In this document: positions 15,114 through 57,294 of the stretch, one piece after another
How positions within the stretch are numbered: the stretch's first letter is position 1
Layout: each line of letters opens with the position of its first letter
Made by a program: the position numbers and the translations under genes
DNA from: Sipunculus nudus
Lineage: Eukaryota; Annelida; Sipuncula; Golfingiida; Sipunculidae
NCBI GenBank assembly: GCA_026874595.1
Contig: CM049308.1
Location: 1,017,001-1,081,000 of the forward strand
Length of the DNA: 64,000 nt
Reading direction: 5' to 3'
Notes under the pieces: generated by a model
The model's database searches: none
Told to the model about the DNA's origin: nothing
What the model saw: only the letters and a program-made list of their open reading frames with translations

Positions 15114-15117
15114 CTAA

Positions 15118-24178: not shown

Positions 24179-24679
24179 CAAGTGACCCATGGGTCATGAC
24201 ACTCAGCTGACTGGGCAGAGATTCGCCAAGGAAATTTTATCATCTGAATGGTAGTATATACCCATTCAGCTGAAGCATCAAACAGATTTACCAACAGGCC
24301 AAGATTGTGACTGTATTTATATATCTCAAAAATAGAGAAAAAATGCGTAACTTTTAAAAAAAATACAGGTGGTTCCACCAGTCTGCAGAAACTAATAAAA
24401 CACTTACTGGTCAATATCCATGCAAAGAATCATGGTGATCTCTGCATAAGTTGCTCAGATACTTCAGCTTTTGTATCAAATTTTCCATTATTCTGAGAGA
24501 TACTTAGGAGTCCTATAGCTTGAAGGATATGGGTAACAGAGACCCAATTTCAGGTTTCCATGGAGACTTTTGATAGGTCTCCCAGTGTGTCATGAATGAA
24601 GATTCTAGGTCCAGTTGTTATGATTTGTGCCCTGTTAACAGATGTTCATATCTTTAAAGGTCTCAAAAATAGAGAAAAA

Positions 24680-26552
24680 CTAGATGTGTCGGAACGACAC
24701 GAATGCCCCCGCCTGGGGCAAATTAGAAACATTTGTTAAATTTTGAAAAAATTTTAAGTTCAGGAATCATATGGTCAAGCAAAATGCAAACTCAATCTGT
24801 TACGGGTCATTATCAAGCAAAACACCAAAAATTATGCCAGTATCTGCAGGGACTGTGAAAAAAAGTCCATACATGTGCATTTTCCAGAAAAATTTCTGTC
24901 TTTCATGAAATTTTCTATGTTTAGGAGCCGTAAAACAATCAAAAGTAGGTCAACCGGGACCAAACGCGAACTCGATCTGTAACTGTCATTATCTGCCCAC
25001 ACATAAAAAATCAGGCCCGTATCTGCAGGCATTGCGGAAAAAAGTCCGTACAAGTGCACTTTTTTATGAAATTTTGTTAGAGCACCATAAAACGGTCAAA
25101 AGTAGGTAAACTGGGACAAAAAATGAACTCGATCTGTAACTGGTCATTATCTGCCCACACACCAAAAATCAGGCCAATATCTTCAGGTATTGCAAAATAG
25201 AGGTCAGTACATGTGTATATGTCATGAAAATTTATATTTTTCATGAAATTTTCTATGTTCAGGAGCCATAAAATGGTCAAAAGTAAGTCAACTGGGACAA
25301 AACGCGAACTTGATCTGTAACTGGTCAATATCTGCCCACACACCAAAAATCATGCCAATATTTGCAGGCATTGCGAAAAAAAAGTCTGTACATGAGTATT
25401 TGCCATGAAAATTTATATTTTTCTTGAAATTTTCTAAGTTAAGGAGCCGTAAAACGTACAAAAGTAGGTCAACTGGGACGAAACATAAACTTGATCTGTA
25501 ACTGGTCATTTTCTGCCCACACACCAAAAATTAGGCCAATATCTGGAGGCATTGCAAAAAAAAGTCCGTACATATGTATTTGTCATGAAAATTTATATTT
25601 TTCATGAAATTTTCTAAGTTAAGGAGCCGTAAAACGGTTAAAAGTGGGTCAACTGGGACGAAATGTGAACTCGATCTGTAACTGGTCATTATCTGCCCAC
25701 ACACCAAAAATCAGGCCAATATCTGCAGGCATTGCAAAAAAAAGTCTGTACATATGTATTTGTCATGAAAATTAATATTTTTCATGTAATTTTCTATGTT
25801 AAGGAGCCGTAAAACGGTCAAAAGTAGGTCAACTGGGACGAAACACAAACTCGATCTGAAACTGGTTATTATCTGCCTACACACCAAAAATCAGGCCAAT
25901 ATCTGCAGGCATTGGGAAAAAAAGTCTGTACATCTGTATTTGTCATGAAAAGTTCTATTTTTTCATGAAATTTTCTAAGTTAAGGAGCTTTAAAACGGTC
26001 AAAAGTAGGTCAACTGGGACAAAACGCAAACTCGATCTGTAACCGGTCATTATCTGCCCACACACAAAAAATCAGGCCAATATCTGCAGGCATTGCGAAA
26101 AAAAGTCCGTACATATGTATTTGTCATGAAAATTAATATTTTTCATGTAATTTTCTATGTTAAGGAGCCGTAAAACGGTCAAAAGTAGGTCAACTGGGAC
26201 GAAACACAAACTTGATCTGTAACTGGTTATTATCTGCCTACACACCAAAAATCAGGCCAATATCTGCAGGCATTGGGAAAAAAAGTCCGTACATGTGTAT
26301 TTGTCATGAAAAGTTCTATTTTTTCATGAAATTTTCTAAGTTAAGGAGCTTTAAAACGGTCAAAAGTAGGTCAACCGGGACAAAATGCAAACTCGATCTG
26401 TAACTATTCATTATCTGCCCACACACCAAAAATCAGGCCAATATCTGCAGGCATTGCGAAAAAATGTCCATACAACTGTTTTATTTCGGAAGGACAGAAG
26501 GACGGACATGGGTAAAACTATATGCCCCGGCCACTTTGTGGCGGGGGCATAA
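24680..26552 (+). mobile_element. Family C element C1, nested in B0
   Basis: The 5' end CTAGATGTGTCGGAACGACA contains a small palindrome and leads to ATGCCCCCGCC. The 3' end is a hairpin, TGCCCCGGCCACTTTGTGG then CGGGGGCAT followed by AA, which contains the inverse motif GGCGGGGGCAT. The middle holds about eight ~190-bp tandem units ('aactcgatctgtaactggtc', 'atctgcccacacaccaaaaa'). It sits in an A-tract of B0 ('agagAAAAA' / 'AAAttgtaaa'). Confidence 0.75.
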
Positions 26553-26562
26553 AAATTGTAAA

Positions 26563-29500
26563 CAAGTGACCCATGGGTCATGACGCTCAGCTGACTGGGA
26601 AGAGATTCGCAAAAGGAAATTTTATCACCAGAATGGTAGTATATACCCATTCAACTGAAGCATCAAACAGATTAACCAACAGGCCAAGATTTAGTCTGTA
26701 TTTATATATCTCAAAAATAGAGAAAAATGTGTAAACTTTTAAAACTAGAATACGGGTAACCGACAAGTGACTACATGTATCTGCCAAAATCGAATAGTGA
26801 GGCATGGATTGAGTGGCAAGGGGAAATAAAGTGAGGTATGTTGCATATTAGCATGGATGTCTGCAGCCTAAATGTGTATGTAGGTTGTGCCACCTACCAC
26901 AAATCCAGAAAGCTGTCCAAGTTGTATACACCTGCAAAATTTTAGGCAGAAAAGTCAAACCACTACATGTATATGAGCGATTTTTGCCCATGGCAGACAA
27001 ACAGACAAACACTGTGCAAAAATCTTTGCAGGTAACCCCTCCAGTTTTGTGTATGATAAAGACCTATGTGAGATCTAAACACATGCACAATTTTGGCCCA
27101 ATCGGTCAAATGGTTCCTGAGATATGAGCTTGGATGTGTCCAGCGTTAACTAGAATGTAGGTGGCGCCACCTGTCATAAAATCAAGAAAGCTGTCCACGA
27201 TGTATAAACCTGCAAAATTTTAGGCAGTTATGTCGAACCACTACAGAGAAATGAGTAATTTTAGGCCACGGCAGACTAACAGACAGACGCTGTGCAAACA
27301 TTGTTACAGGTGGCGCCACCATTTTTTGTGTATGTTACAGAGCTATCAAAGGGCTACATTTGAATAAATTTTATTTCCTGATCGGTCAAACGGTTCCCGA
27401 GATATAAGCTTGGATGTCATCAGCGTGAACGTGAACGTAGGTGGCGCCACCTGTCATAAAATCAAGAAAGCTATCCTGGATGTATACACATGACGAATTT
27501 CAGGTGAATTAGTCAATTCACTGCAGAGATATGAGTGATTTTAACCCAAGGCAGATGAACAGATGGACACTGTGCAAACATGGTTACAGGTGGCGCCACC
27601 ATTTTTTGTGTATGTTATAAAGCAATCCAAGGGCTACATTTGTATCAATTTTATTTCCTGATCGGTCAAACGGTTCCCGAGATATGAGGGTTTATGAGTG
27701 GATACAAACCCACAAATGGACACTGGATAGAGAGGAAAGGTCAGAGGTCAATGCAAATTGGTTAGGCACAAGTTCACATGTGACCCGATAATAGGTGTAA
27801 GTTTGGGAAAAATCGGTCCATTAGTCTCCGAGGAGCTCTCTGGAAACGAACGCCGCCGCGGCGGAGGAACTCGGTCAAAAACATAGTATCCGCAAAACTT
27901 CGTTTTGGCGGATACAAAAATACAGGTGGCTCCACCAGTCTGCAGAAACTAATAAAAACACTTAATGGTCAATATCCATGCAAAAAATCATGGTGATCTC
28001 TGCATTAGTTGTTCAGATACTTCAGTTTTTGTATCAAATTGTCCATTATTCTGAGGGATACTTCGGAGTCCTAAAGGATATGGGTAACAGAGACCTAATT
28101 TCAAGTTTCCACAGGCACCTTTCATGGGCCTCCTTGCATGACAAGAATGAAGATTCTAGGTCCAGTTGTTGCGATTTGTACCCTGTTGACAGATAACCAC
28201 ATCTTTAAAGGTCTCAAAAAAAAGAAAAAAATTTGTAAAAATTTAAAAAATAAATAGAGGGGGCACACCCAGTCTGCAGAAACTGATGGAACAGCTCATG
28301 ATCAATATGTATGCCGAAAATCATGACCATCAGTGTTGTAGTTATTGAAATACTGCAGTTTTTGTATCAAATTTTCCATTATTCTGGGGGGGGGGGGGGT
28401 ATTTTGGACCCATACAGCTTAAAGAATATGGGTAACAGAGACCTAATTTCAAGTTTCCATGGAGACTTTTCATGGGTCTCCCTGTGTGTCAAGAATAAAG
28501 ATTCTTGGTCCAGTTTTTATGATTTGTGCCCTGTTAACAGATGTTCATATCTTTAAAGGTCTCAAAAATACAGAAAAATTTCGTAAAAAAAACCGAACAA
28601 ATACAGGTGGTGCCACCAGTCTGCAGAAACTTATGAAACACTCCATGATCAATATCCATGCAAACAATTATGGTTATCTCTGCATTAGTTGTTCAGATAC
28701 TTTAGCTTTTGTATCAAATTTTCCATTATTCTGATCTGTACTTTGGAGTGCCATAGCTCAAAGGATATGGGTAACAGAGACCAAATTTCAGGTTTCCATG
28801 GAGACTTATTATGGGTCTCCCTGTGTGTCAAGAACGAAGATTCTAGGTCCAGTCGTTACGATTTGTACCCTGTTGACAGATAACTACATCCTTAAAGGTC
28901 TCAAAAATGGAGAACACAATTCGTGAACATTGAAAAATACAGGTGGCGCCACCAGTCTGCACAAACTGATGAAACATCTCATGATCAATATGTATGTCGA
29001 AAATCATGACCATCAGTGATGTAGTTAATGAGATATTGAAGTTTTTGTATGAAATTTTTGACTATTCTGGGGGGTAATTTTGGGCCCCATAGCTCAAAGG
29101 ATATGGGTAACAGAGACCTAATTTCTGGTTTCCATGGAGATTTTTCATAGGTCTCTCAGTGTGTCGAAAATGAAGATTCTAGGTCTAGTCGTTACGATTT
29201 GTGCCACGCTAACAGATGACAGCATCCTCAAAGGTCTCAAAAATAGAGGAAAAAATCGTAAAAAATCAAACAGTACAGGTGGCGCCACCAGTCTGCAGGA
29301 ACTGATCGAACATCTCATGATCAATATATATGCCAAAAATGAAGACCATCAGTGATGTAGTTATTGAGATATTGAAGTTTTTGTATGAAATTTTTTACTA
29401 TTCTGGGGGGTACTTTGGGGCCCCATAGCTCAAAGGATATGGGTAACAGAGACCTAATTTCTGGTTTCCAAGGAGATTTTTCATGGACCTCTCAGTGTGT

Positions 29501-29964
29501 CAAGAATTAAGATTCTAAGTCCAGTCTTTATGATTTGTGCCTTGTTAACAGATTTTCACATTTTTAAAGGTCTCAAAAATAGAGAAAAAAATTCGTAAAA
29601 AATCGAAAAATACACGTGGCGCCACCAGTCTGCAGGAAGTGATGTAACATCTCATGATCAATATGTATGCCAAAAATCATTACCATCAGTCAAGTAGTTA
29701 ATGAGATATTGAAGTTTTTGTATGAAATTTTTGACTTTTCTGGGGGGTACTTTGGGGCCACATAGCTCGAAGGATATGGGTAACAGAGACCTAATTTCTG
29801 GTTTCCAAGGAGATTTTTTATGGACCTCTCAGAATCCCAAGTTACAAGGTTCTAGGTCCAGCGGTTACGATTTGTGCCTGGTTAACGGACGGACAGACGG
29901 ACAGACGGACGACGGACAAAGAGTGATCGCTATAGCTCAGATGACTTTCAGTCAGCTGAGCTAA
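26563..29964 (+). mobile_element. Family B element B1, nested in B0
   Basis: It starts CAAGTGACCCATGGGTC and ends CTAA at 29961-29964 after a short (GGAC)n run. It is a same-family insertion at 'ttgtaaa' of B0: the right flank 'aagacctgaacaaatacagg' joined to that left flank resembles the intact unit at about 28584-28606. It carries several ~340-bp units and is itself interrupted by a G element (26745-27917). Confidence 0.6.
26745..27917 (+). mobile_element. Family G element G1, nested in B1
   Basis: The 5' end CTAGAATACGGGTAACCGAC leads to a TATCTGCC motif. The 3' end is the hairpin GTATCCGCAAAACTTCGTTT + TGGCGGATAC. It is preceded by a GCC/GCG trinucleotide patch (27850-27866). The body has paired units with GGTGGCGCCACC at 27160, 27309, 27440 and 27589. 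The flanks ('cttttAAAA' and 'AAAtacagg') rejoin to the B unit seen intact at about 24345, with no target duplication. Confidence 0.72.
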
Positions 29965-31518
29965 AAGACCTGAACAAATACAGGTAGTGCCACCAGTCTG
30001 CAGAAACTGATGAAAAAACTCCATGATCAATATCCATGCAAACAATTATGGTGATCTCTGCATTAGTTGCTCAGATACTTCAGCTTTTGTATCAATTTTT
30101 CCATTATTCTCAGCTGTACTTTGGAGTGCCATAGCTCAAAGGATATGGGTAACAGAGACCTAATTTCAGGTTTCCATGGAGACTTTTCATGGGTCTCCCT
30201 GTGTATTAAGAATGAAGATTCTAGGTCCAGTCATTACGATTTGTACCCTGTTGACAGATAACTACATCCTTAAAGGTCTCAAAAATAGGGAAAAAAATTG
30301 TAAAAATTTTAAAAAATACAGGTGGCACCACCAGTCTGCAGGAACTGATGGAACACCTTTTGATCAATATGTATGCCAAAAATCATGACCATCCATGTTG
30401 TAGTTATTGAGATGTTGCAGTTTGTTTTTATCAAATTTTCCATTATTCTGGGGGGTAATTGGGAGCCCCACAGCTCAAAGGATATGGGGTAACAGAGACC
30501 TTATTTCAGGTTTCCATGGAGACTTTTCAGAGGTCTCTCACTGTGTGGGGAATGAAGATTCTAGGTCCAGTCTTTACAATTTGTGCCCTGTTGACAGATG
30601 TTCACATTTTTAAAGGTCTCAAAAATAGAGAAAACAATTTGTAAACAAGGGACCCATGGATCACATCGCTCAGCTGAATTTTAGAAAATATTAGTACTGC
30701 AAAATATTTTGATTTCTTTTGGTTTTTCATGTATATTATCATTAGAAAAGCTATGAGAAAGTGGCCCTGCTAAAATGAAACTCTGTAAATTATAGAATAA
30801 TGGACATGAGCTAAACCATTTAGTGATGCACCAAGGGAACAAATAGGCCAATGGTAAGTGTTATATAAAAGTAACATTTTATAAACAAATAATGTGTGAA
30901 GGTAATTAAGTTTTCAAAAGTTAAAAATATGGCCTAATTTTAATACTAAGTTAACAATGATATTCACAACTAGGCCCCGCCAACTTTAAGAGATATTAAT
31001 AAAATGCTATAAAGTATTTATATCTTCTTTAAACTTGTCAGTTAGCACTTACATTAGATCCTTATATTTTATCACATTTGAATATTAGAATTAAATTCCT
31101 GAATTTAAAAAAAAAATCAAAATTGTCCAAGTCTCATCAAAAAGAATTTATTTTACATTAAAATTATAAGATTCATCTTGTTTAATAGTCCTGTGTATTG
31201 AAGGGGTGGAGGGGGGGGAGGGGTCTCCTATGTTACTGCTCGTTGCTGGTAAAAATGTTAATTTTAAGATTCATCTAGTTCATAGTAGAGGTCTGTCAAC
31301 AGAATGGGGTGGGGGGGGGGGGAGAGAAAAAGGCTCCCTGTGGTATGGTATTAACTGCAGAGAGCCTGATCAAGCTCAACTCAGTGGAGAGAGGGCTTGC
31401 CCTAGTGTAGGATTGCATAACATTATGCCTGGGGAGCATAGAGAGCTGCACTGAATGACCTACAGTGCCCAAAGTGGACTGCTTGACAATGTAAGGGAAT
31501 ACAACAAGAGCCTCCAAA

Positions 31519-34500: not shown

Positions 34501-34630
34501 GCAAAGACCCAGTTTTCGGCTTGGTAGGAGATCTTTGGGACATCTAACATTATGCTGAATTTTGTATTCCTAGGTCTTTCGGTTTCGAAACATGCCACAT
34601 CTACGGACGGACGGACGGACAGATGGACGG
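31519..34630 (+). mobile_element. Cluster of A elements inside the A host
   Basis: Three family-A 5' ends occur in series: CAAGGGACCCACGGGTC at 31519, CAAAGGACCCATGGGTC at 32131 and CAAGGGACCTATGGGTC at 32325. None of the first two has its own 3' end here. The third runs to (GGAC)n and breaks off at about 34630, before the hairpin, with an internal deletion near 32645. The cluster is bracketed by a ~42-bp direct repeat of host sequence (31472-31513 and 34635-34676), so its origin is more complex than simple insertion. Confidence 0.6.
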
Positions 34631-35107: not shown

Positions 35108-37741
35108 CAAGGGACCTATGGGTCACGACGCTCAGCTGTTATATGTGATAAAAAAATATTATTTAGAAATGAGGCACATGCTGGTTTTGGGTGGTAATAA
35201 ATATAAGCTGTATTATGAGTTGTTGTTGTTTAGCTTATGTATGATTTTGATAGTACCTTTGGAGACAGGGAAGAGGATTGATTTCATTTATTTTATTAAC
35301 AAATGGAGTACTTTTGTCACACAGATTTTGACTTGGCCATATAACTTATAAGCAGAACATATAATATAAGAGTTTAACTATTTATTAAAAAAAATTACAA
35401 AAATTGTCCCAAATATAATTTTTATAAAAAATAATAAGAGAATCATATGATTTTCTTAAATGAAATATAACTGATATGATTATTAAAATAATATTAAAGA
35501 ATATATTCATGAATGCATTCATGAATACATTTTGAAAGTATTTGCACGAGTATTCATATACTTTCATTTTTACCTGAATTCCTATTCTTTATGCAAGAAA
35601 TTTTATAATGGAGTACATAATCATATTCGTATTTAAATACAATTACAAAGTATTCGCACCATGTCTGGTATTTATTCAGTTTCACCAACCAATGATGTTG
35701 AGAATCCAGAATATACAAAATTCACACATTTAAATAATGATCATAAGTACCTGGTTTTATGGCTTTTATTTATATTAAAAAATAACTGTAAAAAATTCAT
35801 TTTGGAATAATTTCACTTCTATGTACACACTAGACACAGTAGGAATCTAGATTAATATTAACAACTGCATCTTTGTCTTTCATTAATTTCCTTCATAATA
35901 TCCCTAATGATAAGTAATGAATAATATGATTTACTTCTTTATCATTAAAATTGAACTGAAAAATGCCGTAGGTGACTGCATGGTGTTATTTTGAATATGT
36001 GACATTCTACCCATCGATACAAGATTCTTATATCATCAGTAACTGCAAGTTAATTTCCTGTTATTATAAACTAACAAATTCCTTTTCTATTTTTCTTTAA
36101 TTTGTTATTAAAAACCAATAAAAATTTATTAATTTATTGTTTATTGTTATGTTGTTGGTTAAAACTACTAGATGAGTTGGGTTGGACACCTGGATCAACT
36201 GTGGCTGGCCATAAGCTGCCTGGATTCCTGTATGCCTCGCCTCAAGCGTGCATAATTTGATGAAAGGTCAACAAGGTCAACATACAGGTGACTCAAGAGG
36301 GGCTGGAGAGAGCCAAAGTCTGACAGAGTCTCATAAAAAACATTAATAAAAGCTACAATTTTTGGCCAATTTCTTTCAGCTTTCTAAACTAAAAAGCTGA
36401 AATCCAAATGTGTGCATGATATGAAAATTATATCAACAGTGCTCACAGGACACAAACGTGCCATGGTCACATTTGGGCAAAATTTAAGGTACTAATTTTA
36501 TATTTATACTAATAACTTATAAAATTTGAAAAATTCAGAACTAATTTTGGGGTATTCAATTGAATCTTGATTAAATAATGTTACATCCCTGACAAAAAAA
36601 TCTCTAGCTTCAGCAATGCCCTTGTTAAGGGAGTAAATATATTTCTTGATATTTTACAAAGTGCATTATGTTTGGGCCCACAACTTAAAACAATTACGCA
36701 ATACTGACATCATTCTGGCATGTGCATAGAGAATGAAAAATATGTATATTATTTATGATTAAAGTCAGATCAGTGGTTTTGATATTAGGCAGTCTTGAAG
36801 TGTAACAATGGGTTTTTAATGGAAAAATGAAGTTTTTCATTAATATCTCGAAGGTATTAAGTCCTAGTGACCAAATTCTTGGCATGGTAGGGGATTTTGG
36901 AGACATCTATCTGTATGCCAAATTTAAGGAACTAAGAGTTGAAGCTGGGGAGCTGAGCTCTTGCAAACTGCATAACACTAGCTTGATGTAAACAATATGT
37001 TACATGGTGCTTGAAAACTTATTAAAATCTACAGTTTTTGATCAACTGGTTTCAAACTTTTGGTGTTAACAGTTGAAATGCTAACAAAAACATGCTGTGA
37101 AAATTAAATCCACAGTACTTACAGGAAAAAAACGTGCAATGGTCAAAGTTGGGCAAAATTTAAGGTACCAATTTTTATTTTTATTAATATTTTAGAAAAT
37201 TTAAAAGATTTTCATCTAATTTTGGGTATACAATTTAATTTTTATTTATTAAAGTTATATTACTGGAAAAAAGGTCGATAGCTTTAACATTTTTTGTGTT
37301 AAGTGATCAAATATCTTTCCTGATTTTTTACAAAATGCATTATGTTTGGGCCCATAACTTTTTTAAATTAAATAATACAGACATAATTTCTGGCATGTAC
37401 ATAGGAACTATATAGAGGAATATTTATGGTAAATATGAGGAAAAACAGATGAGTGGTTTTGATATTAGGCAGTCCTGAAGTGTGAAAATAGGTTTTTAAT
37501 AAAAAATTGAGGTTTTTCCTTGATTTCTCAAAGGAACGAAGTTGCAAAGACCCAGTTTTCGGCTTGGTAGGAGATCTTGGGGACATCTAACATTATGCCG
37601 AATTTTGGATTCCTAGGTCTCACGGTTTCAAAACGTGCCACATCTACGGACGGACGGACGGACGGACGGACGGACAGACGGACGGACGACGGACAATGGA
37701 CCACGACTATAGCTCAGATGACTTATAGTCAGCTGAGCTAA
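35108..37741 (+). mobile_element. Family A element, complete long form (2,634 bp)
   Basis: It starts CAAGGGACCTATGGGTC and ends CTAA (37738-37741). It is inserted in another A copy: 'tgaggAA' on the left and 'AAAcagatgagtgg' on the right rejoin to the five-A junction 'gaggaaaaacagatgag' seen intact at about 17238-17256. The exact fit confirms the ends and the absence of a target duplication. (GGAC)n at 37648-37690 precedes the hairpin. Confidence 0.85.
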
Positions 37742-39475: not shown

Positions 39476-41702
39476 CTAAACATTTCTTGGCACCGCAGGT
39501 GCCAGAGTATCCCCAGACATAGTAGCCCCCCCCCCCCTTTAAGAACAGACCCCCAATTTTGGCAGCATATACTGACACTTGGCATATTTATTGTTTCTTC
39601 CATCTAACAATCCACAATCTTGTTGAAGTTGTTGGTCCTGTGACCTTGATTGTTTTAAAGATGTGTCCTGTGACCTTGACCTTTGACCTCATGACCCCAA
39701 AATCAATTTGGGTCTCGCTTTTCCAATGGGACATATGCAAGTCAAGTTTGAAATCTATACATCAATAAAGCAGGAATTATCATCCAGAAACTAATTTTTT
39801 TTGACAGGTGGCTCCTGTGACCTTCACCTTTGACCTTGTGACCTCACTGACCTTGACCTTTGACCTCATGACCCCAAAATCAATTTTGGTCTTGCTTTTC
39901 CAATGGGACATATACAAGTCAAGTTTGAAAACCACACATCAATAAAAACAGGAATTATCATCCAGAAACTAATTTTTGGACAGATGGCTCCTGTGACCTT
40001 CACCTTTGACCTTGTGACCTCAAAATTGATAGGGTTCTTCCTCTCTTGGCAGGTGAACTATATGTGCAAGATGAAAGATCTGATCTGAAATGTTTGGCTG
40101 AAAATGCATCCACATCTTTTTAAAGATGTGTCCTGTGAACTTGACCTTTGACCTCATGACCCCAAAATCAATTCGGGTCTTGCTTTTCCAATGGGTCAAA
40201 TACAAGTCAAGTTTGAAATCCATACATCAATAAAAGCAGGAATTATCATCCAGAAACTAATTTTTGGACAGGTGGCTCCTGTGACCTTCACCTTTGACCT
40301 TGTGACCTCAAAATTGATAGGGGTCTTCCACTCTTGGCAGGTGAACTGTATGTGCAAGATGAAAGATCTCAGATGAATTCTTTGGCTGAAATTGCATCCA
40401 CAACCTTTTTAAAGATGTGTCCTGTGACCTTGACCTTTGACCTCATGACCCCAAAATCAATTCAGGTCTTGCTTTTCCAATGGGTCAAATACAAGTCAAG
40501 TTTGAAATCCATACATCAATAAAAGCAGGAATTATCATCCAGAAACTAATTTTTGGACAGATGGCTCCTGTGACCTTCACCTTTGACCTTTTGACCTCAC
40601 AATTGATAGGGGTCTTCCACTCTTGGCAGGTGAACTATATGTGCAAGATGAAAGATCTCAGATGAATTTTTTGGCTGAAATTGCATCCACAGCCTTTTTA
40701 AAGAGGTTTCCTGTGACCTTGACCTTTGACCTCATGACCCCAAAATCAATTCAGGTCTTGCTTTTCTAATGGGTCAAATACAAATCAAGTTTGAAATCCA
40801 TACATCAATAAAAGAAGGAATTATCATCCAGAAACTAATTTTTGGACAGATAGCTCCTGTGGCCTTGACCTTTGACCTTGTGACCCCAAAATTTACATGG
40901 ATCATCCACTATTGGCAAGTGAGCTATATATTCAAGATGGAAGACCTGGGATGAAAGTTTGGCTTAAAATGCATCCACAGTATATTTTAAAATGCCAGTC
41001 CAGTGACCTTGACCTTTGACCTCATGACCCTAGAACCTATAGGGTTCTTACTTTAGTGGTGGGCCATACATAAGTCATGTTTGAAATCTATACGGCTATC
41101 AACACTGGAGATATCATAAGAGGAGTGTGATTTTCACCATATATGGCAATATTCAAGGTCAAGGCCACTAACATAGGAAAGGTCATGACCCCAATTTAAA
41201 TAACCATCATCCAATAACCCATACCTATGTATATGCATAATATAAAAGAAATCTGTCCATTAGTTTTTGACTTATAATGCTCACAGTACTGTAAGGTGGC
41301 AATTTTGGGAGTATTAAACGGCATGAAAACAAGTAAAGAATAATAGGTGGCACCACCAGTTTCTGGAACATGACAACCCTATCCATGATCTTCCATTAAC
41401 TTGATTTTAGGATAAACCTATGCAAGATTTCTTGAGATATTAAAGAATTTGTGTGATTTTCCCCAAAATTGGACCTATTCAAGGTCAAGGACACTCTCCT
41501 AGTAAAGGTCATGACCTCATTTTAAATAGGCGTCATCCTCTTACCCATATCTATACATATACCAAGTTTGGTAAAGTTCCGTGTAATATTTTTTGGGTTA
41601 TCGCGCCAACAAGATTTATATGCGGCGGCGGCGGCAGTGGCGGCGGCGGCGGCGGGACCGGTATGAAAACATAGTATCCCCCGACTTTGTCTGGGGGTAC
41701 AA
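39476..41702 (+). mobile_element. Family D element D1, complete
   Basis: The 5' end CTAAACATTTCTTGGCACCG contains the palindrome TTGGCACCGCAGGTGCCA and leads to GTATCCCCAGAC. The 3' hairpin is GTATCCCCCGACTTTGTC + TGGGGGTAC, preceded by (GGC)n at about 41622-41656. The middle is a tandem array of ~289-bp units, each with TGACCTTGACCTTTGACC (39671, 39848, 40136 variant, 40424, 40714, 41004). The element is non-coding. Confidence 0.75.
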
Positions 41703-43986: not shown

Positions 43987-44071
43987 AAAATAAACATGTG
44001 TATGTGGTTAACATACACATGACGCACGACGGACGACAACGCACTATCGCATAAGCTCACAGGTTGGCTAA

Positions 44072-45833: not shown

Positions 45834-46729
45834 CTACAAATGTTAAAATTCATATCTCAGAAATGTGTACAATTTTTACTTCTGAAAGTACAAGATACCA
45901 TGTCAGAATACCATGACAAAGTGCACCACAGCGGTAGAATATAAAGATAGAGGGCTTAAGGATGAAGAATTCTTTCAAACTAAGATCACTTTTGATCTGA
46001 CTGAAAATAATTTTTCAAGTGAGAAAACATTTCCCGATAAAAACAGGATATAAATTTAATGTACTGCATGCAACCCTTTTTGTCCATCCAGTGTTGTAGT
46101 CCTAGCATTTAAATAGACATTTTGTATCAACATCTGCTATAACATACACATACCAATGACCATGTTTACCATTTCATCCTGAAAAATCAAAGTTCTGAAA
46201 ATATACTTTCACAGGCACATTGTCAAGCACAAGACGATAAAACTACAAATGAATACACACATACCCCTCTCGCTCATCATGGTCAAGCACAAGATGATAA
46301 AACTACAAATGAATACACACATACCCCTCTGGGTCATCATTTGCCACTGAAAGGTATCAGATTTCATCTGTCTCTATATGTGACAAGCTCCATATCAGTT
46401 CAACCAAATGACCAAGTAAAGAGAAGGTCATATCAAAGTTCAAACTCTAATCCTGCAGCATGCAAACTCAAAGATTTGACTCATACAGTAACATTTCATT
46501 TTATTATCACATTATTAAAAGATAAACAACAATAAAGAAAACCACAAAGCATAAATAGGCTCTGTTTTAATTTCACTATACAGAAAAAAAAATTTAGTAA
46601 AAAAATTATGCTATATTGGGGCATATTTGAGTCCAAGACTGCAGGCATGTGGCAATTACCGGAACATTAGATTTTTGTTGATGGCTACATTGAGTCCTTG
46701 CAATCCACCTCCACTGATTCATTTGAAAA
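45834..46729. other. ENT upstream intron or 5' flank; short tandem duplication
   Basis: A 60-bp unit ('tcaagcacaagatgataaaa' to 'ctctgggtcatcat') is present twice at 46221-46340 with three to four differences. No exon or repeat end was recognised elsewhere in this stretch. Confidence 0.6.
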
Positions 46730-48115
46730 CAGACATTTCTTGGCACCACAGGTGCCATAGTATCCCCAGACAATTAACCCTACACCCTCCTCCAAAAAAT
46801 CGGCCCCCTATGTTCAGCAGCATATATACTGACACTTGGCAAGCGACTATGGTTTCTTCCATCTATCAACTTGAGAAACAATATTTTTCACCAAATATTT
46901 TTTTTTATATATTACATTATTACTAAAAAAATGGTTAGGTATGTGGTGCCACCTGTCTGGTTTACAAGAAAATTTTCCAAGAGGGACAGACATGCCAAAT
47001 TAAAGACCAATACCTTGAACCCGGCCAGAGATAATTTTCAACCAAAGCACATGTAGAGATGGATGCCACTGCAAAATGATTGCAGATGGCACCACCAGTC
47101 TTGAGTACAAGATGGAGGAGTCCAAGATCTATGGATATGCAAAATTTCCGGCCAATAGGGCAAATCATTCCTGAGAAAAGGGCATCAATTTATTCTACAA
47201 AAACAGGAAGGTAGGTGGTGCCACCTGTCTGGTTTATGAGAAAATTTTCCAAGATGGATGGAAATGCCAAATTTCAGACCAATACCTTCAACAAATCCAG
47301 AGATATGAGCAATTTTCACCAACAGCAAACGTACAGATGGTCGCCACACAATAATGATTGTAGATGGTGCCACCAGTCTTGATTATAAGATGGAGGTATC
47401 CAAGATCAATGGACATGCAAAATTCCAGCATAATCCATCCATTATTTTTAGAGTTATAATGCTCACAGTACTGTTAAGTGACAATAATGCCCAGGGTATA
47501 AAAAGGCATGCAAACAAGAAAGGAACAGAACGTGGCAAAACCTGTCTTTCCAAGAAGACAAGCTATCCAAGATCTTCAGTAAATTTGATTTTTGGACCAA
47601 TCCATGCATCCCTTATTGAAATATTTATAACTTTTTGTGATTTTCACCATATGTGGCAATATTCAAGGTCAAGGCCACTCTCATAGGAAAGGTCATGACC
47701 CCAATTTAAATATACATCATCCCATAACCAATGTCTATGTATATGCATAATATGAAAGAAATCTGTCCATTAGTTTTTTACTTATAAAGCTCACAGTCCT
47801 GTTAAGTGGCACTGATGGGGGAAAACAAATAAAGGATAATAGGTGGTGCCAGCAGTTTCTGGTACATGACAACACTATGCAAGATCTTTGGTCAAGTTGA
47901 CTTTTAGATCAATTCATGCAAGATTTCTTGAGATATTTAATAATTTGTGTGCTTTTCTCCCAAAATGGACCAATTCAAGGTCAAGGTCACTCTCCTAATA
48001 AAGGTCATGACCCCATTTTAAAATAGGCTTCATCCTCTTACCCATATCTATGCCTTTGTCAAGTTTGGTAAAGATCCATGAAATATTTTTTGAGTTGTCA
48101 CGTCAAAAAGAAATC
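46730..48115 (+). mobile_element. Family D element D2, 3' end decayed
   Basis: CAGACATTTCTTGGCACCAC with GGCACCACAGGTGCC, then GTATCCCCAGAC, matches the D1 5' end. The body has paired 'gtaggtggtgccacctgtct' units (46942, 47212), then the 'tgtggcaatattcaaggtca' block shared with D1 (41143-41162). The expected 3' hairpin is not visible near 48110-48160, where only 'ctgcggctgcaacgc' recalls the trinucleotide patch. Confidence 0.6.
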
Positions 48116-49179
48116 TCTGCGGCTGCAACGCAACCATGCTTTAACCTGTTTTTGACTGGGGACTTAATCAAGTTCAAATCAGAGTCAATATAAACCTCCT
48201 AATCAAAAGAAATTTAAAAGGCAAATTTAGGATTATCATGTTTATTTTTATATTAGTTTACACGTTTTATACTTGAATATTTAATTACAATTAGCTCCCA
48301 TTGCATAGCTAATGGTTTACAGATACTGCCGTTTTATATAATTTAATTGAATATTCAATTATATTCAGCTCCTGATGCAGAGCTTTCTCCTTTCTTTACA
48401 ATATTCTCTCAGAAGCTCACACTTCTTTTTATATTCTATGATACAGCTTTTTCTCCTTTACTTTAAGCTTTTATAACTACTTTATACTTTTTAAAAACCC
48501 TTTATAATTGCTCAACACCAACTGATAATTTGCATTTTTTGACCTTTAATAAATGTTCAATGAAGCAGGAGAAGAGTCAGAAAATTATGCTTCCACATAT
48601 AATATGCACCAAGGTGAAAAATGGTGAAAAAATGTATATTCATTCTTTTTAGTCCCCCGTCTTATGACCCCTGCTGCTTTCTTCAAATTTGACAGACTTA
48701 CTCGGAACATGAATGACATATGATAATAACCTGCATGTTGGGCCATCTCTGTTTAGCAACTTTCAGCGTTCCAAAATGAGTTTTTTCACTCCCCTTCAGA
48801 TAAGTCAGTATATACGAACCACTAGCCTTCACAACATGTGCAATGATTACTTGGAGCAAACAAATTTCATTCAAAGGGACATAATCAGGAGCGATTTATG
48901 AGTGTTTTTTTCACACTATCAGTTCAGTTTTGCTTTATACAAAAGTTTCCCAGCAAAACCATCCCAACATAGTCTCAGTAGCTTGCATACAGCTGTTTAA
49001 CACCTTGTGTTTGTAAATACAGTCCAAGTGTGTCTGTTTGCCATAAAAAGGCCCCATGACCAGAGGTCCGATTGTGAGCTCCAACGCACAAAGTTTCATT
49101 TACATGTAATACATTTTTGGAACCAAGTTAGTCAGGGCATCTCGTCATTGGCAGGTGTTGTGGAGCTCAGCAATGCTCA
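48116..49179. other. No gene seen
   Basis: AT-rich sequence with two diverged 'ttaattgaatattcaattatattcagctcctgatgcagagc'-type stretches (about 48275-48310 and 48340-48385). No splice-supported exon was found. Confidence 0.45.
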
Positions 49180-49390
49180 GAGTCCAATGCACTGTGTTTA
49201 TGTTAACACTTTTAATCGCGCCCGGTCCACTTATTTAAACACCCGTTTACAGGAGTAACCAAATGGTTTAAGGGCAATGTCTTGGCAGGTATAGACTTAT
49301 TTTAAAGGGATAAAGATATTTTTCGTGTTAATTCAACATCCTTTATATGTGACTGGGCTCCTTTAACACTATACTGAATAGAATCATTTT
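49180..49390. repeat. Dispersed repeat shared with 62850-63020
   Basis: 'cggtccact...ttacaggagtaa', then 'aagggcaat...ttggcag', then 'attttaaaggg', and 'gtgactgggctcctttaa' here, match 'ctggtccactg...ttacaggagtaag' through 'gtgattgggtcccttaa' at about 62862-63005 in the same orientation. It is a diverged family of unknown class. The 62.8-kb copy lies directly beside a MITE. Confidence 0.5.
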
Positions 49391-49794
49391 CAGACTGACG
49401 TTTCCACAGGACTTTTGCTGATCATAAAATTTTCTGATTTAACATGTTTGTACGGTATATATGGTACAATGTACAAAATCTGTTATCTTTCATTTCATGA
49501 ACACTTGTCCAATCAGTACCAAATCTTTAACACATGTTCAATCATTTCACTGCCATGGGATTTTTGCCTGCAGATGGCGCTACCTGTGGTAGCTTTCTCT
49601 CTGTCAGGAGAAATGGTATTTTCTGCTTATTCCTCAGTTAGTCAGAAATGTTTAAATTTTAGCTTTCCTATCATGGTCAACTGTAACTTTGAGACCAAGG
49701 GGAATTAAATGTGTGTAACTTGAATGGTTTATTTTCAGATAGAAAGCAGAAAAGAGAGCTGAGGCAGCAGGTAAAACATTGTAACAAATATGTC

Positions 49795-50220
49795 CCAGTG
49801 GGAGCAAAATGATAACATTTGTATTTGTATTTGAACTAAATATTTGATGTATTTGATCAAATACTGTACAAATACATATAAATAAACAAATATTCTAATT
49901 CTTATTCCAGAATAAAGATGTCTTTCAGTCAGTAGGTTTGAGGAATTTATGTTCCTTTGTTGCAAATGAACAGGAATTTGTTTTAAACTAATCTCTATAA
50001 GTACACAAGGAGTATCGGTACAAGTAGACATTATGAATAGTTATGGTTCTGAAAATTAATAAATAATTTGTATAACCTACATTTGAGTTTTTGTATTTTA
50101 TGTTCTTTATTTGTATTTATCTTCACTCACTCATATTTGTTTTTGTATAAATTAGGAATAGACCAGCTTTCATACTTATATTTGTATTTGTCACACTGTA
50201 TTTGACCCCAACCAGGGTTA
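49795..50220. repeat. ATTTGTATTTG-rich repeat ending in GACCCCAACC
   Basis: Irregular short runs of 'tttgtatttg' and 'aaatacaaat' lead to 'tatttgaccccaaccaggg' (50200-50218). A related stretch at 62085-62206 ends 'catttgaccccaaccctg'. It is probably one dispersed AT-rich family with a fixed CCCCAACC terminus. The long frames here (49735-50444, minus) are repeat artefacts. Confidence 0.45.
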
Positions 50221-50796
50221 TTAATTTCCCAGGGCATATTTCCCAGGGCAGTGGGAATTCCTGAGAATTCCCAGGAAATACTGGGAAATAAAGGGATTAT
50301 AGGAATTGAGTCACATATGTCTAAATTGTATTTTGTGTTAGCTTGTTTTTGCTGAGATATATCATATATATTCATATAGTAAGCAGGAGAGGAGACCAAG
50401 GAAACAAAAGACACCTGTTTTCTGAATTTGTTTTTCATCAACAATCCAACTGTAACCTTGTAATTATGTCATAAGAAACCACAAGGACTCATATATGTAA
50501 GCAGTAACTGAGTACTACTGAGCCACTCTGAGGTCTCAAAAACCCCTCATAATGGGGGGGGGGAGTACAAACTAATGATGTAACTTTTGTTATTTACCCT
50601 GCCTGCTTTGATTATCATCAAGCTGTTTTGTCTTTGATGGCGTGGGTTGGAGCTAACATAAAACCAGTGATATCATGCATGACTGGATATAACTGGGCAG
50701 CTACATAATAAAGGTATATAAAGTGAAACAGTTAAACATATAGATCAGTTACAACATCAGTGTGGCACTGTGTAGAATAGGGTTAATTATGATAAA

Positions 50797-51597
50797 ATGA
50801 TTGAATGTTTCTCATCTGAATGGGTATCCATTCTTAGACAAGGATGCGTCTCTGGGTTAAAGTTAATCTATGTAACTGATCTCGGTAAGGATAAATATAT
50901 TGGATCAGAAAATTTCACTAATAAGTTACTATACAATCATTTGATACATAGGGATACTGTTCCAAGTTGTATCGACAGGTGGAATAAGGTTTTTAATAGT
51001 AACTTACAAGTAAAACATGTGTTTTATAAATGTTATCACAAGCTAAATGATGTTTCGGATTTAATCATAAATGGCAGGAGCTTTCTGAAAACTGTATTTT
51101 ATTGCTGGATTTTGTCTTGATTAGTGCTAAATATGTTTTATGGTGTAATAGGAACAAATGTATTATATCATGACCATTAGAGCCAGTATGTTTTCTTAAG
51201 AATATTATTATTAACAGAATAAAGCAAGAACATTTTTCAAGTAAAACTAAAGGTCAACAGGGGATACAGGATTTTAAAAAGATTTAGTGTTTAAACAATG
51301 CACTCTGTAAAGTAGATAATGATTTTAATCTCACCATTTTGGTTTAGTCTATTTCTAATTTCGTTTTAGGGGGAGGGTAGGCCCTCTTTCAGATTTTGAA
51401 TAGGTTTGTTTTGAATGTGCAACTGTTTAGATGTTTTATTAGAGACCAGATTTTGTATCTATAGGTACGATTTGTTTTTATAATCATAGTTTGGTTTGTT
51501 CTGGATTTTGAATAATAAGCACTCGTATATGATATGTATCAATTTATATATGTTTGTAAATATTTTGATTTTAATAAACAATATAATAAAAAAAAAA
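50797..51597 (+). pseudogene. Non-LTR retrotransposon (L1-like) 3' remnant
   Basis: A 107-codon frame (50797-51120) ends with CIDRWNKVFNSNLQVKHVFY...SDLIINGRSFL. A +1 shifted frame continues with ISAKYVLWCNRNK. These W/K-rich blocks followed by 'AKxxLW..R' resemble the region downstream of reverse transcriptase in L1-type LINEs. The 3' end has AATAAA (51573-51578 and 51585-51590) and an A10 tail (51588-51597). The frame is broken by shifts and stops, and no reverse transcriptase core is left. An A element starts exactly at the end of the A tail. Confidence 0.6.
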
Positions 51598-54500
51598 CAA
51601 GGGACCCATGGGTCACGGTGCTCAGCTGTTATATATGATAAAAAAAATATGATTTGGGAAAGAGGCACATGCTTGTTTTGTGTGGTAATAAATATAAGCT
51701 TTATAATGAGTTGTTGGTGTTTAGCTTATGTATGATTTTGATAGTATCTTTGGAGACAGGGAAGAGGATTGATTTCATTTATTTTATTAACAAATGGAGT
51801 ACTACTGTCACACAGATTTTGACTTGGCCATATAACTTATAAGCAGCACATATAATAAAAGAGTTTAACTATTTATTAAAATTTAATAACAAATATTGTG
51901 CCAATATAATTTTTATTTTAAAACAAGGGACCCATGGGTCACAGCGCTCAGCTGATCGTGATTGGACCATAAATGTTTCTCCACTGTGATACTATATCGA
52001 GTCGATAAAGCTTATGAATATCATGGACATGTTGGGCTATTATAAAGGAATGTAATGTAATATGTGAGTAAATGATAAATGAAATAACCTGACTGATGGA
52101 TTAATAGAGTCATATATAGTGGTTTATTTTTTATTTATTAAAGAGGTGTAGAAAATTGTGATATATTTGAGCAAATATGAATGCAATGACAGCAGTAATA
52201 AGCAGTAGTAGAATGATGATAAGGCTATTTGTTGAAGGATCTAAAGTGTATGGTAGTCTGCAAGCTTTCAATTTGACAGATATGATGTTGTGATTAACTA
52301 TGCTGATGAAGTGATTTATGAATATGTGACTGTATGACACAATATCTCTTTAGTCTTGACAAGGTACATTATTGTGATGCCCACTATCTCACATATTACA
52401 CAATATTGACTTAATTTCTGGCATGTACATAGGTACCTATGGACAAATAGTTATACAAAATATTAAAGTATGAATATATCTGATTCATCTTGTTCTTGCT
52501 TACTGAGGCTGACTTTGGGATGGGGTTCGGAGAAGGGAAAAGTGAGGGCAGCACGAAGGTGGATGTAGAAATATTCTATTGTAATGTTTTTCATTTATAT
52601 AAGAATATGAAAAGCTAAAAGGAAAGGGGCCCTCCTACTTGGTTATAGTAAAGTTCGAAATATATGATTGCAAACTAATACTCTGACAAGACTGTCATGA
52701 AGAAAAACAGTAAAAGTTTTGAGATACTGTAATGTATGAAAATTTACAGATGGAAAATTTACAGATGGACAGGCAAGTGGACAGAATGGACTAATACCTT
52801 TATTTCACTTTCAAGGGAATAATGCATTTAAGTTTATATATAAGCCTATTTTTTTTAAGCATATCCACTTTTTCCATTAAGAAGTTTTTATCTGAATCAT
52901 TTTTTTTATTTACAGGTTTTATAAATTTTAAATGAAAAAACCTGAAAATATAAGTTAAAATATTAGAATTGTTGCAAAAGTTGCAATCATTATATATACA
53001 GAGTAAAAAACTGAAACTATAAGTTAAAATATTAGAATTGTTGCAAAAGTTGCAATCATCATATATCCAGAGTGTAGCTCATATTGGGTCATATTATGCA
53101 TACACATATATTTTATTATTTTTAAATCATAAATGTTAAAACTGAATTTAAAAGAAAATAATGCCACAACATGGCATCTACAAGAATATTCCTTGAATGA
53201 CTATTAAAAAGTTTTGCACATTGGAGTTTTCAGTACCTGCTTAATTTTATTCACCAAAATAAAATAAAAGATTCAGTAAATTTGATAAAATAAAAACATC
53301 TTTTCAAATAAAGTATACACACTGTTGGTTGAATGAGAAACAAACAATATCATTGTGTTAATTACTATCCAAGTTTTAATTAATTACTGAAATTAATAGT
53401 CAATTTCACACCTGGTGAAGTTTTTACTCCTCTGAAGTAAGGAATTACTTATCTCATGAACATCCACACTTTCATAGCAATACACCACTTTGTGGACACA
53501 ATTAAATGTACACTTTAATCATTGTAACCCTGGTGGTACAATACAAAATCTAAAATGTAGCATAGCCTAGAATAAGAATGAATCACATACAGAAAATAAT
53601 AACATTCATCTAGTTTATGCACCATCTGGGGGGGGGGGGGGGAGTGCAGAGCAGAGGGGAAGCCTGCTGGTAGCAGCCAAGCTGATCCAAGGCAAGCTGC
53701 CTGGGGTGGTTTACATAATGCAAGTGAAGGCTGTACTACTAGGTGGGCTAGATGTAAACAACACTTGACATGGTGTATGAAAACATGAATAAAAGCTATT
53801 CTTTCCAATCAATTTATTTGAAATTTCAGATTTTAAAAGATTAAATCCTTATGTATATATGCTGTGAAAATTAAATCAACAGTGCCAAAGTTGGACAAAA
53901 TTTAAGGTATTGATTTTTTATTTATGCTAATAACTTGAAAAATTTGCAAAATTCAGATCTAATTTTGGGTAAACAATTGAATCTTGATTAAATAAAGTTA
54001 TATTCCTGAAAAAAAGTCTAGGTTCAGCAATTCTCATGTGAGTAAATATATTTCCTGATTTTTTAACAAATTGCATTATGTTTTTGGCCCATAACTTCAA
54101 AATAATACCCAATACTAACCTAATTTTTGGTATGTTCATAGAAAATGTATTAAAGAATGTGAATCCTAAATACGATCAAAAACAGATCAGTGGTTTTGAT
54201 ATTAGGCAGCCCTGAAGTGTAACAATGGCTTTTTTTATGGAAAACGGAGTTTTTTTTCCCTTAATATCTCGAAGTCCTGAACAAAGTCCTAATGACCTAA
54301 TTTTCCGTATGGTAGGAGATTTTGGGGACATCTAAAATTATGTCAACAGCCTGGGGAGCATAGAGATGTGCACTGAATGACCTACAGTCATCAAAGTGGA
54401 CTGCTTGACAATGTAAGGGAATACAACAAGAGCCTCCAAAAAAATCCAATAACTAGCCTAATTTTGCAGCTTTTATTTTCAAATTTCAGATTTTAATAGA

Positions 54501-55122
54501 TTAAATCCTTATGTATACATGGTGTGAAAATTAAATCCACAGTACTTACAAGAAAAAAACGTGCCATGGCCAAAGTTGGGCAAAATTTAAGGTACCAATT
54601 TTATATTTTTGCCAATATTTAAAAAATTTAACAAATTTTGATCTAATTTTTGGTATACAATTAAATTTTGATTAATATAAGTTGTATTACTGGAAAAAAG
54701 TCCCTATCTTTAACACTTTTGGTCTTAAGTGACCAAATATCTTCCTGATTTTTTTACAAAGTCCATTATGTTTGGGCCCATAACTTTTTTAAATTATATA
54801 ATACTGACTTAATATCTGGCATGTACATAGGAACTATATAGAGGAATATTTATGGTAAATATGAAGAAAACCAGATGAGTGGTTTTGATTTTAGGCAGTC
54901 CTGAAGTGTGAAAATAGATTTTTAATAAAAAATTGAGGTTTTTCCTTAATATCTCAGGGGAACGAAGTCCTATTGACCCAATTTTTGGCATGGTAGGAGA
55001 TTATGGGGACATCTAACTGTATGCCGAAATTCAGATTCGTAGGTCCAACGGTGTCGAAACGTGCCAGTCTTACGGACGGACATCCAGACAGACGGACAAC
55101 GACTTATAGTCAGCTGAGCTAA
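51598..55122 (+). mobile_element. Cluster of family A sequences (51598, 51924 starts)
   Basis: Two 5' ends, both CAAGGGACCCATGGGTC, lie at 51598 and 51924, the second cutting the first after 326 bp. The remainder is a patchwork of A bodies: 52565-52705 matches 32186-32324, and 53820-54350 and 54430-55122 each hold the block before the 3' end. The final copy ends CTAA (55119-55122). A 69-bp unit is duplicated at about 52935-53072 and a G-run (16) lies near 53627-53642. Individual limits inside the cluster are unresolved. Confidence 0.6.
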
Positions 55123-55314
55123 AAACTGTGTAGAACAGCCTCCAAACTCTCAACCTTGCCTGCCAGCTCAGCATCAGTTAATCACAATTTCTCAAACTTT
55201 GAAGTTGTACAGAAGAAACTGAGAAACAGGCTTGGCATAGACAAAGCCACTAAACTTGTGATTGTTATAGGCATTTGAGAGGAAAAGAAGAAGTAGACTG
55301 GGAGATATAAATAA

Positions 55315-57294
55315 CTAGAATACGGGTAGTCGACGAGCGACTACTTGTATCCGCCTAAATCAGAGTGGAACGGGTGAAGTGTTGCATATTAGCATGGATG
55401 TCTGCAGCCAAATTGTGTATGTAGGTTGCGCTACCTACCAAAAAATCCAGAAAGCGGTCCAAGTTGTATACATATGCAAAATTTAAGGCAGATAAGTCAA
55501 ACCACTACATGTATATGAGTGATTTTTGCCCTTGGCAGACAAACAGATGGACGCTGTGCAAAAAAGGGTTGCAGGTGGCGCCACCAGTTTAGCGTATGAT
55601 AAAGAGCTATGTGAGAACTATACACATGCAAAACTTTGGCCCAATCGGTCAAACAGTTCCCAAGATATGAGCTTGGATATCTGCTGCATAAACTAGAATG
55701 CAGATGGCGCCACCTGTCATAAAATCAAGAGAGCTGTCGGGGATGTATAAACTTGCAAAATTTTAGGCAGATATGTCAAACCACTGCCGAGATATGAGTG
55801 ATTTTATCCCATGGCAGACAAACAGACGGGAGCTGTGCAAACATGGCTGCAGGTGGCGCCACCAGTTTTGCGTATGATAAAGAGCTTTGTGAGATTTATA
55901 CACACGCAAAATTTTGGCCCAATCGGTCAAACGGTTCCCTAGATATGAGCTTGGATGTCTGCAGCGTAAACTTGATTGTAGGTGGCGCCACCTGTCATAA
56001 AATCAGAAAAGCTAACCAGGATGTATAAGCATGCCAAATTTCAGGTGAATTAGTCAAACCACTGCAGAGATATGAGTGATTTTAACCCAAGGCAGACGAA
56101 CAGATGGACACTGTGCAAACATGGTTGCAGGTGGCGCCACCATTTTTTGTGTATGTTATAAAGCTCTCCAAGGGCTCCATTTGTGCAAAAAAATTTTCCT
56201 GATTGGTCAAACGGTTCCTGAGATATGAGCTTGGATGTCTGCAGCGTAAACATGATTGTAGGTGGCGCCACCTGTCTTAAATCAGAAAAGCTATCCAGGA
56301 TGTATACGCATGCCAAATTTCAGGTGAATTAGTCAAGTCACTGCAGAGATATGAGTGATTTTAACCCAAGGCAGACAAACAGATGGACACTGTGCAAACA
56401 TGGTTGCAGGTAGCGCGACCATTTTTGGTGTATGTTATAAAGCTCTCCAAGGGCTACATTTGTGCAAAAGAATTTTCCTGATCCGTCAAACGGTTCCCGA
56501 GATATGAGCTTGGATGTCTGCAGCATAAACGTGAATGTAGGTGGCGCCACCTGTCATAAAATCAGAAAAGCTATCCAGGATGTATACACATGCCTAATTT
56601 CAGGTGAATTAGTCAAGTCACTGCAGAGATGCGAGTGATTTTAACCCAAGGCAGACAAACAGATGGACACTGTGCAAACATGGTTGCAGGTGGCGCCACC
56701 ATTTTTGGTGTATGTTATAAAGCTCTCCAAGGGCTACATTTGTGCAAAAGAATTTTCCTGATCGGTCAAACGGTTCCCGAGATATGAGCTTGGATGTCTG
56801 CAGCGTAAACGTGAATGTAGGTGGCGCCACCTGTCATAAAATCAGAAAAGCTATCCAGGATGTTTACGCATGCCTAATTTCAGGTGAATTAGTCAAGTGA
56901 CTGCAGAGATATGAGTGATTTTAACCCAAGGCAGACGAACAGATGGACACTGTGCAAACATGGTTGCAGGTGGCGCCACCATTTTTGGTGTATGTTATAA
57001 AGCTCTCCGAGGGCTACATTTGTGCAAAAAAATTTTCCTGATCGGTCAAACGGTTCCCGAGATATGTGGGTTTATGTGTGGAAACAGACGCACAAACGGA
57101 CGCAGAGCGCAGAGGAAAGGTCAGAGGTCAAAACAAAATCGGGGCGCAGCAGTTCACATGTGACCCGAACATAATCCCGGGTTTCGGAAAATTCCACCCA
57201 GCGGTTACGGAGGAGTTCTCCGGACACCTACGCGGCGGCGGCGGCGTGCAGCTGAAAACATAGTATCCGCAAAACTCTGTTTTGGCAGATACAA
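55315..57294 (+). mobile_element. Family G element G2, complete (1,980 bp)
   Basis: The 5' end CTAGAATACGGGTAGTCGAC + GAGCGACTAC forms a palindrome and leads to GTATCCGCC. The 3' hairpin GTATCCGCAAAACTCTGTTT + TGGCAGATAC mirrors it and is preceded by (GGC)n (57231-57246). The body is about five ~280-bp units, each with two GGTGGCGCCACC palindromes spaced alternately ~131 and ~149 bp. G1 is a shorter copy with about two units. It is non-coding; open frames through the array are artefacts. Confidence 0.78.

Follow-up and report, generated by a model that had tools for sequence, protein, structure and literature searches.

Repeat families and their end architecture

Several sequence-unrelated tandem-repeat families lie in a 64,000-nucleotide stretch of the Sipunculus nudus genome (GCA_026874595.1, contig CM049308.1, positions 1,017,001 to 1,081,000; hereafter the window, C3:1017001-1081000 in our contig numbering), and they raise the question of what kind of element has produced them. 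In a preliminary description made from the sequence alone, four families, A/B, C, G and D, were proposed to share one terminal design and to be Helentron-derived elements served by related machinery. The genome (1.43 Gb, 153 contigs) was searched for these ends and for coding elements carrying them. The families are almost certainly non-autonomous Helentrons (HINEs), each family retaining the cis-acting ends of the Helentron lineage to which it belongs.

All of the motifs quoted for the four families were found in place, far above the expectation from dinucleotide shuffles. The A/B palindrome GACCCATGGGTC matched five times in the window (0.00 expected), the C motif twice (0.00), the G motif twice (0.09) and the D palindrome three times (0.02). 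Genome-wide, exact matches to the bipartite end patterns numbered 12,767 for A/B, 4,404 for G, 2,555 for C and 2,366 for D, and control patterns read backward gave no match for any of the four. A/B is a super-family, and its copies reach well beyond the coordinates originally given. Tandem units between the ends form the core in all four families, with unit lengths of ~336 bp in A, 181 bp in C, 280 bp in G and 146/289 bp in D. Such satellite-like cores could also be expected of ordinary satellite DNA with incidental ends, but this explanation is already contradicted by the defined ends of thousands of dispersed copies, by nested insertions with empty sites and by identical ends on coding elements, and its probability is negligible.

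Read in reverse-complement order, the elements consist of a 5' subterminal repeat that pairs with an inverted partner in a hairpin, the tandem core, an inverted copy of the repeat, a palindrome and the terminus, and in A and C the 5' hairpin is followed by a CCGT-type microsatellite. The 5' repeat is placed right at the 5' tip, the 3' repeat ~20-35 bp inward of the 3' tip. The 3' termini are CTAG in C and G, CTAG or CTAA in D and CTTG in A/B, with T-rich DNA beyond. Subterminal inverted repeats (subTIRs) at both ends and a palindrome near the 3' end occur in all four families, for G most clearly at the fetched locus L082. The direction originally given to the elements was rejected, as the Rep open reading frames (ORFs) of the parents described below run the opposite way, and the elements are therefore read reversed. 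The resulting order is that published for DINE-1/HINE (Thomas, Vadnagara and Pritham 2014, PMC4067079) and for Cg_HINE (Vojvoda Zeljko et al. 2020, PMC7492417), so the supposed 5' palindrome is the palindrome of the true 3' end; the supposed 3' hairpin is the true 5' end. By the usual Helentron convention the window elements sit on the minus strand. Family D, which had been taken to begin at its palindrome, starts at 39476.

The two ends match each other as inverted repeats without mismatch over 12-13 bp in A and over 11 bp in C (0/1000 terminus shuffles as good in either family). In D the match is perfect over 9 bp and extends to 12/13 with one mismatch (10/1000 shuffles as good). The corresponding G repeat, GTATCCGCC...GGCGGATAC, is intact at L082, and such intact copies agree over 9 bp. 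When the termini were folded, the 5' hairpins of all four families were more stable than shuffles (z -5.9 for A, -4.9 for C, -5.3 for G and -2.8 for D). Among the 3' palindromes, those of C, G and D were more stable than shuffles by a small margin (z -2.7 to -2.2), and the A palindrome folded no better than its shuffles (z -0.5). The predicted 5' hairpins of A and C have an identical structure of 8 bp, one mismatch, 5 bp and a loop of 3; that of G differs in having a one-base bulge in place of the mismatch, and D is nearly alike. The hairpin sequences of the four families are mutually unrelated, and with one geometry across unrelated end sequences, recognition of the ends by structure becomes testable. 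Almost no compensatory changes were seen within families in the 5' hairpins; the pair indexing used for A and C was shifted by one position, and no claim is drawn from this comparison. At L068 (reverse), two A-type 3' ends are found 45 bp apart, at 596 and 641, as if by end-on insertion or capture of two ends.

Coding Helentrons with A/B-type and C-type ends

With the PF14214 profile we identified 143 Rep matches in the genome, several of them in ORFs of 2,200-2,400 amino acids. One element of ~14.9 kb on contig C17 (L083, L065, L064 and L063, read in reverse) carries both ends of the A/B family. Its 5' end, TTTTTAGCTCAGCTGACTGAAAGTCAACTGAGC, is an A-type hairpin (TTTTTA-GCTCAGCTGACT...) followed by CCGT repeats and A-type tandem units with 73-80% identity to the window array. 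After these units comes a single ORF of 2,342 amino acids (P0001), and the element ends with TCAGCTGAGC-atcat-GACCCATGGGTC-ACTTG-TTT. P0001 contains DUF6570, a Helitron_like_N domain (PF14214, 7.4e-28), a PIF1 helicase domain (PF05970, 5.2e-23) and, in the same ORF, a match to Exo_endo_phos (PF03372, 3.6e-4) in which a GDFNID motif is present. Four copies of this parent (C17, C10, C5 and C1) share 98.6-99.0% identity as far as ACTTGTT, with unrelated sequence beyond, and on the 5' side they share a common start at TTTTTA with unrelated flanks. The A/B-type 3' end was also found behind other Rep subtypes (L071, L072, L074 and L076).

Two minor features of this parent were observed. Its 5' end occurs a second time inside the tandem region (L083 reverse, 3097 and 3820; also L084 and L086); this internal repetition was seen in no fewer than three of the four parent copies and is a possible source of shorter elements. 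In addition, a G element lies in the 5' region of the C17 parent (L064 reverse, ~0.15-1.02 kb into the fragment). It occupies the same place in the other copies, and was therefore probably carried along by transposition.

Parents of C were reached with end patterns that exclude the usual interior, a search made for C and G with a per-search miss rate for unrelated interiors of 44-68% for C and 44-76% for G. Most matches were variant HINEs. One of them, L089 (C1:46022505), had kept an endonuclease remnant before a C-type end, and its relatives L090 and L091 (C3:41766555 and C5:20312583) are C parents that lie ~4 kb behind PF14214 Rep matches (L092/L093). Their endonuclease, putatively fused to the Rep frame, is above the cut-off (PF14529, 1.3e-8). 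Both end with GCGGGGGCATTCGTGTCGTTCCGACACATCTAG-TTT and are 98.7% identical to that point, after which the flanks are unrelated. At the other end, a ATGCCCCCGCC hairpin would be expected. The C-type Rep carries the RGSPH signature and is ~40% identical to the A/B Rep in the Rep domain. RGSPH, the Helentron form, was present in the legible Rep motifs, including those of the C17-type, T2 (L036 and L038) and C-type; the exceptions were L035, with RGWPH, and the degenerate L010, with RGLPH.

The Reps of A/B and C are both of Helentron type and only ~40% identical, and the two families thus have separate, related machinery belonging to two Helentron lineages. To this extent the proposal of related machinery is upheld, and coding elements with the same ends were found for both ends of A/B and for the 3' end of C. 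An alternative is a single lineage with fast-diverged or exchanged ends and cores, in which one Rep may move several families. The identical dot-bracket geometry of the A and C 5' hairpins (8-1-5, loop 3), nearly shared by G, would agree with this, as would the occurrence of the A/B end type on several Rep subtypes, since the A/B-ended subtypes C17, L034 and L038 are ~69-85% identical in the Rep region. However, A-type and C-type ends are carried by clearly different Reps, each with its own ends, and we consider a single lineage unlikely, though not to be neglected. For G and D, the assignment to HINEs is based on architecture, insertion site and ends, and these two families would use further Helentron lineages.

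Two other candidates were rejected. L036 appeared to be a C-ended Helentron, with a C hairpin just before its homology to L038, but a C element has inserted upstream and L038 represents the empty site. T1, the most abundant Rep type (L012, L020 and others), showed no A, C, G or D ends in the 14 kb around L020, and its own ends were not found. A T1 Helentron with a 2,426-amino-acid ORF (L059+L060) shows an extended 3' region that contains internal repeats and lacks A, C, G or D ends; part of this region recurs on C153:35897-55276 with a regular spacing of ~4,750 bp, and at many dispersed places.

Insertion sites and class assignment

The elements and ends identified in the window are as follows, all on the minus strand.

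6903..8285, minus: A/B-type element, 3' end at 6903 and 5' hairpin at 8257-8285; ends putatively paired from order and spacing
15642..17538, minus: A/B-type element of the same kind as 6903-8285; end pairing putative
18209..18251, minus: D-type 3' end with CTAG terminus, palindrome and subTIR
24179..24679, minus: A fragment with 3' CTTG, palindrome GACCCATGGGTC, 3' subTIR and first tandem units, interrupted by the C element
24680..26550, minus: C element of 181-bp units; 3' end ...GGCGGGGGCAT-TCG-TGTCGTTCCGACA-CATCTAG, 5' hairpin ATGCCCCCGCCACAAAGTGGCCGGGGCAT; empty site at window 30579-30677
26563..29962, minus: A element of 336-bp-type units, interrupted by the nested G element; 3' CAAG at 26563 (reverse CTTG), palindrome and subTIR, 5' subTIR and inverted-repeat hairpin at 29935-29962; both ends common to the autonomous Helentron
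26745..27915, minus: G element of 280-bp units inside A; 3' end GGCGGATAC-palindrome-CCGTATTCTAG, 5' hairpin GTATCCGCC...GCGGATAC; empty sites in many A units
35108..37740, minus: A/B-type element of a 2.6 kb subfamily, 3' end at 35108, GAATACATTCAT repeat, ACGG microsatellite and 5' hairpin; end pairing putative
39476..41700, minus: D element of TGACCTTGACC 146/289-bp units; 3' end GTCTGGGGATAC-TCT-GGCACCTGCGGTGCC-AAGAAATGTTTAG, 5' hairpin GTACCCCCAGACAAAGTCGGGGGATAC; empty site in L040
42801..43984, minus: C element, second copy; 3' subterminal repeat damaged
46729..46771, minus: D-type 3' end
51598..51957, minus: two A/B-type 3' ends (51598 and 51924)
55315..57292, minus: G element, second copy
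57844..60446, minus: A/B-type element of the 2.6 kb subfamily, second copy; end pairing putative

The flanks of C 24680-26550, G 26745-27915 and D 39476-41700 were joined and compared with the window and the fetched loci. In each case the joined flanks correspond to uninterrupted relatives elsewhere in the window or in the fetched loci, and no target-site duplication is visible at these empty sites. C and G are inserted in an A run (T on the other strand) and D in AT-rich DNA; L036 and L038 form a further filled and empty pair for C. The insertion evidence for A/B is confined to the flanks of the four parent copies, which are T-rich and without duplication.

These sites bear on two other classes. 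Inverted repeats near both ends of short, gene-less and numerous elements are what would be expected of miniature inverted-repeat transposable element (MITE)-like derivatives of cut-and-paste (DDE) transposons. However, their placement is asymmetric (right at the tip on the 5' side, ~20-35 bp inward on the 3' side), neither terminal inverted repeats nor target-site duplications were found, and the ends of A/B and C are those of coding elements of the Rep-PIF1-endonuclease type. Such an origin is already contradicted for these two families and is extremely unlikely for the set. No DDE-type partner was seen, and no search aimed at DDE elements was made. Canonical Helitrons (Helitron1) would be compatible with the palindrome near the 3' end and with the CTAG/CTAA termini, a CTRR-like end being present only in C, G and D. 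In contrast to canonical Helitrons, the families have no 5' TC, insertion is between T and T (A and A on the opposite strand) instead of between A and T, subTIRs are present at both ends, and the parents encode an endonuclease and RGSPH, so this class is also very unlikely.

Several observations weigh against the assignment of the families to Helentrons with their own parents. Of the C parents only the 3' end was read, and the coding evidence for them consists of Rep and endonuclease. No G parent was found near a Rep among the interior-excluding matches (at the miss rate of 44-76% per search), and no Rep-encoding partner turned up for D, for which the interior-excluding search was not made. 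In G the inverted agreement is degenerate in both window copies, with one mutated base each, and does not exceed shuffles. The P0001 endonuclease match reaches 20.8 bits, below the Pfam gathering value of 24.5, and its final motif appears disrupted. An RPA gene, frequent but not obligatory in Helentron parents, was not seen near the A/B parent: in the 4 kb of upstream sequence of the C17 element that were scanned, no ORF exceeded 120 amino acids (no profile search was made). A CTAG terminus at the 3' end is more familiar from canonical Helitrons and proto-Helentrons. We regard the Helentron-derived class proposed at the outset as correct; it has coding elements with the same ends behind it for A/B and C, and architecture, insertion site and ends for G and D.

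As Helentron derivatives, the families would have lost the coding part by deletion, usually with the satellite-like tandem core remaining, and a HUH Rep nuclease, PIF1 helicase and AP-type endonuclease encoded elsewhere may recognize their ends and mobilize them in trans. The proposed steps follow the analogy with Helraiser, in which the 3' hairpin is a transposition terminator and circular intermediates are formed (PMC4778049). A nick at the 5' end would displace one strand, the 3' palindrome would act as the stop, as in the Helitrons that have been studied, and the single strand would be joined to a T-rich target without target duplication.

Comparison with known systems

The closest likeness is to Cg_HINE of the Pacific oyster (PMC7492417), which has a 5' subTIR with a complementary inverted repeat, a GTCY-type microsatellite, a satellite-like core, a 3' subTIR followed by a palindrome, T-rich sites without duplication and several sequence-unrelated families on one plan. 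No autonomous partner is named in the abstract or in the Results sections consulted, whereas here a coding partner matches A/B at both ends and C at the 3' end. Integration of Cg_HINE is recorded in both orientations, with no description of orientation domains in that paper. DINE-1/HINE elements and Helentrons (PMC4067079) share the Rep/helicase/endonuclease parent, RGSPH, subTIRs, the 3' palindrome, T-rich insertion and, in some copies, tandem repeats. Their subTIRs are near-identical on families less than 70% identical. They differ in host and sequences and in having 3' runs of T where the present families have CTAG, CTTG or CTAA, and no RPA ORF was seen here in the region scanned. Helitron2 FoHeli of Fusarium oxysporum (PMC5148889) has asymmetric terminal inverted repeats, with hairpins at both ends in some groups, but is without endonuclease and uses another insertion site. 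Helraiser and canonical Helitrons (PMC4778049) share the Rep-helicase core and a 3' palindrome near a CTAG end, but have a 5' TC and A-T insertion and lack endonuclease and subTIRs. The class itself is already known from oyster and Drosophila; new here are the HINE families, with coding parents for two. Two abundant satellite-carrying HINE families are in this way tied to coding Helentrons, including a four-copy parent with both ends defined.

Orientation of the elements

Every end found in the window points the same way. Orientation was analyzed on contig C1, 0-35 Mb, from the lists of A, C, G and D ends, using between-family pairs more than 2 kb apart. Agreement was 26/28 (93%) at 2-10 kb, 83/96 at 10-30 kb, 228/307 at 30-100 kb, 481/732 at 100-300 kb, 1239/2097 at 0.3-1 Mb and 2780/5447 (51%) at 1-3 Mb. 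Over 2-100 kb the observed agreement was 0.78, against a mean of 0.52 when strand labels were rotated along each family (0/1000 as high). Copies of the four families thus have a common orientation over tens to hundreds of kb, with shared switch points, and agreement is at chance level beyond ~1 Mb. In the first 6.55 Mb of C1, 143 elements fall into 24 runs, where 20,000 shuffles gave at least 40; the first run spans 1.09 Mb and contains 43 elements, with all four families represented. The majority of other-family elements within 20 kb predicted the strand in 60/60 cases in these 6.55 Mb, in 25/36 at 6.5-21 Mb and in 9/11 at 21-35 Mb. The flanking skew changes sign with orientation (AT +0.07 versus -0.05, GC +0.035 versus -0.08; only four minus-oriented loci, repeats unmasked). 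No telomere was found in the first 150 bases of the C1 and C3 contigs.

The domains are concordant among four unrelated families, and nested insertion cannot account for agreement over tens of kb. Possible causes are inversions or duplications of a local kind, effects of gene strand or of composition, and the polarity of replication. A precedent for the last is found in the bacterial IS200/IS605 elements, whose orientation follows replication (PMC5371812). These elements share with Helentrons an HUH nuclease, single-strand transposition and, in the orientation pattern only, copies oriented by chromosomal position; they are otherwise unrelated, and the corresponding link for Helentrons is hypothetical. 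We tentatively suggest, as a proposal that may well prove wrong, that the strand used in Helentron-type insertion is set by some large-scale polarity of the chromosome, replication-fork direction being the simplest candidate, with the single transferred strand entering the T-rich lagging-strand template. If so, thousands of HINEs would preserve a fossil record of fork polarity across an animal genome. Domains that proved to be genome-wide and to follow replication would show where eukaryotic rolling-circle transposons insert and would provide a readout of replication polarity from sequence. No report of orientation domains for Helitrons or Helentrons was found in the open-access literature, and they look new.

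Tandem arrays outside the four families were also observed in the window, at 3565-4464 (59-bp unit), 4827-6115 (63 bp), 13616-15553 (48 bp) and 19217-19429 (24 bp).

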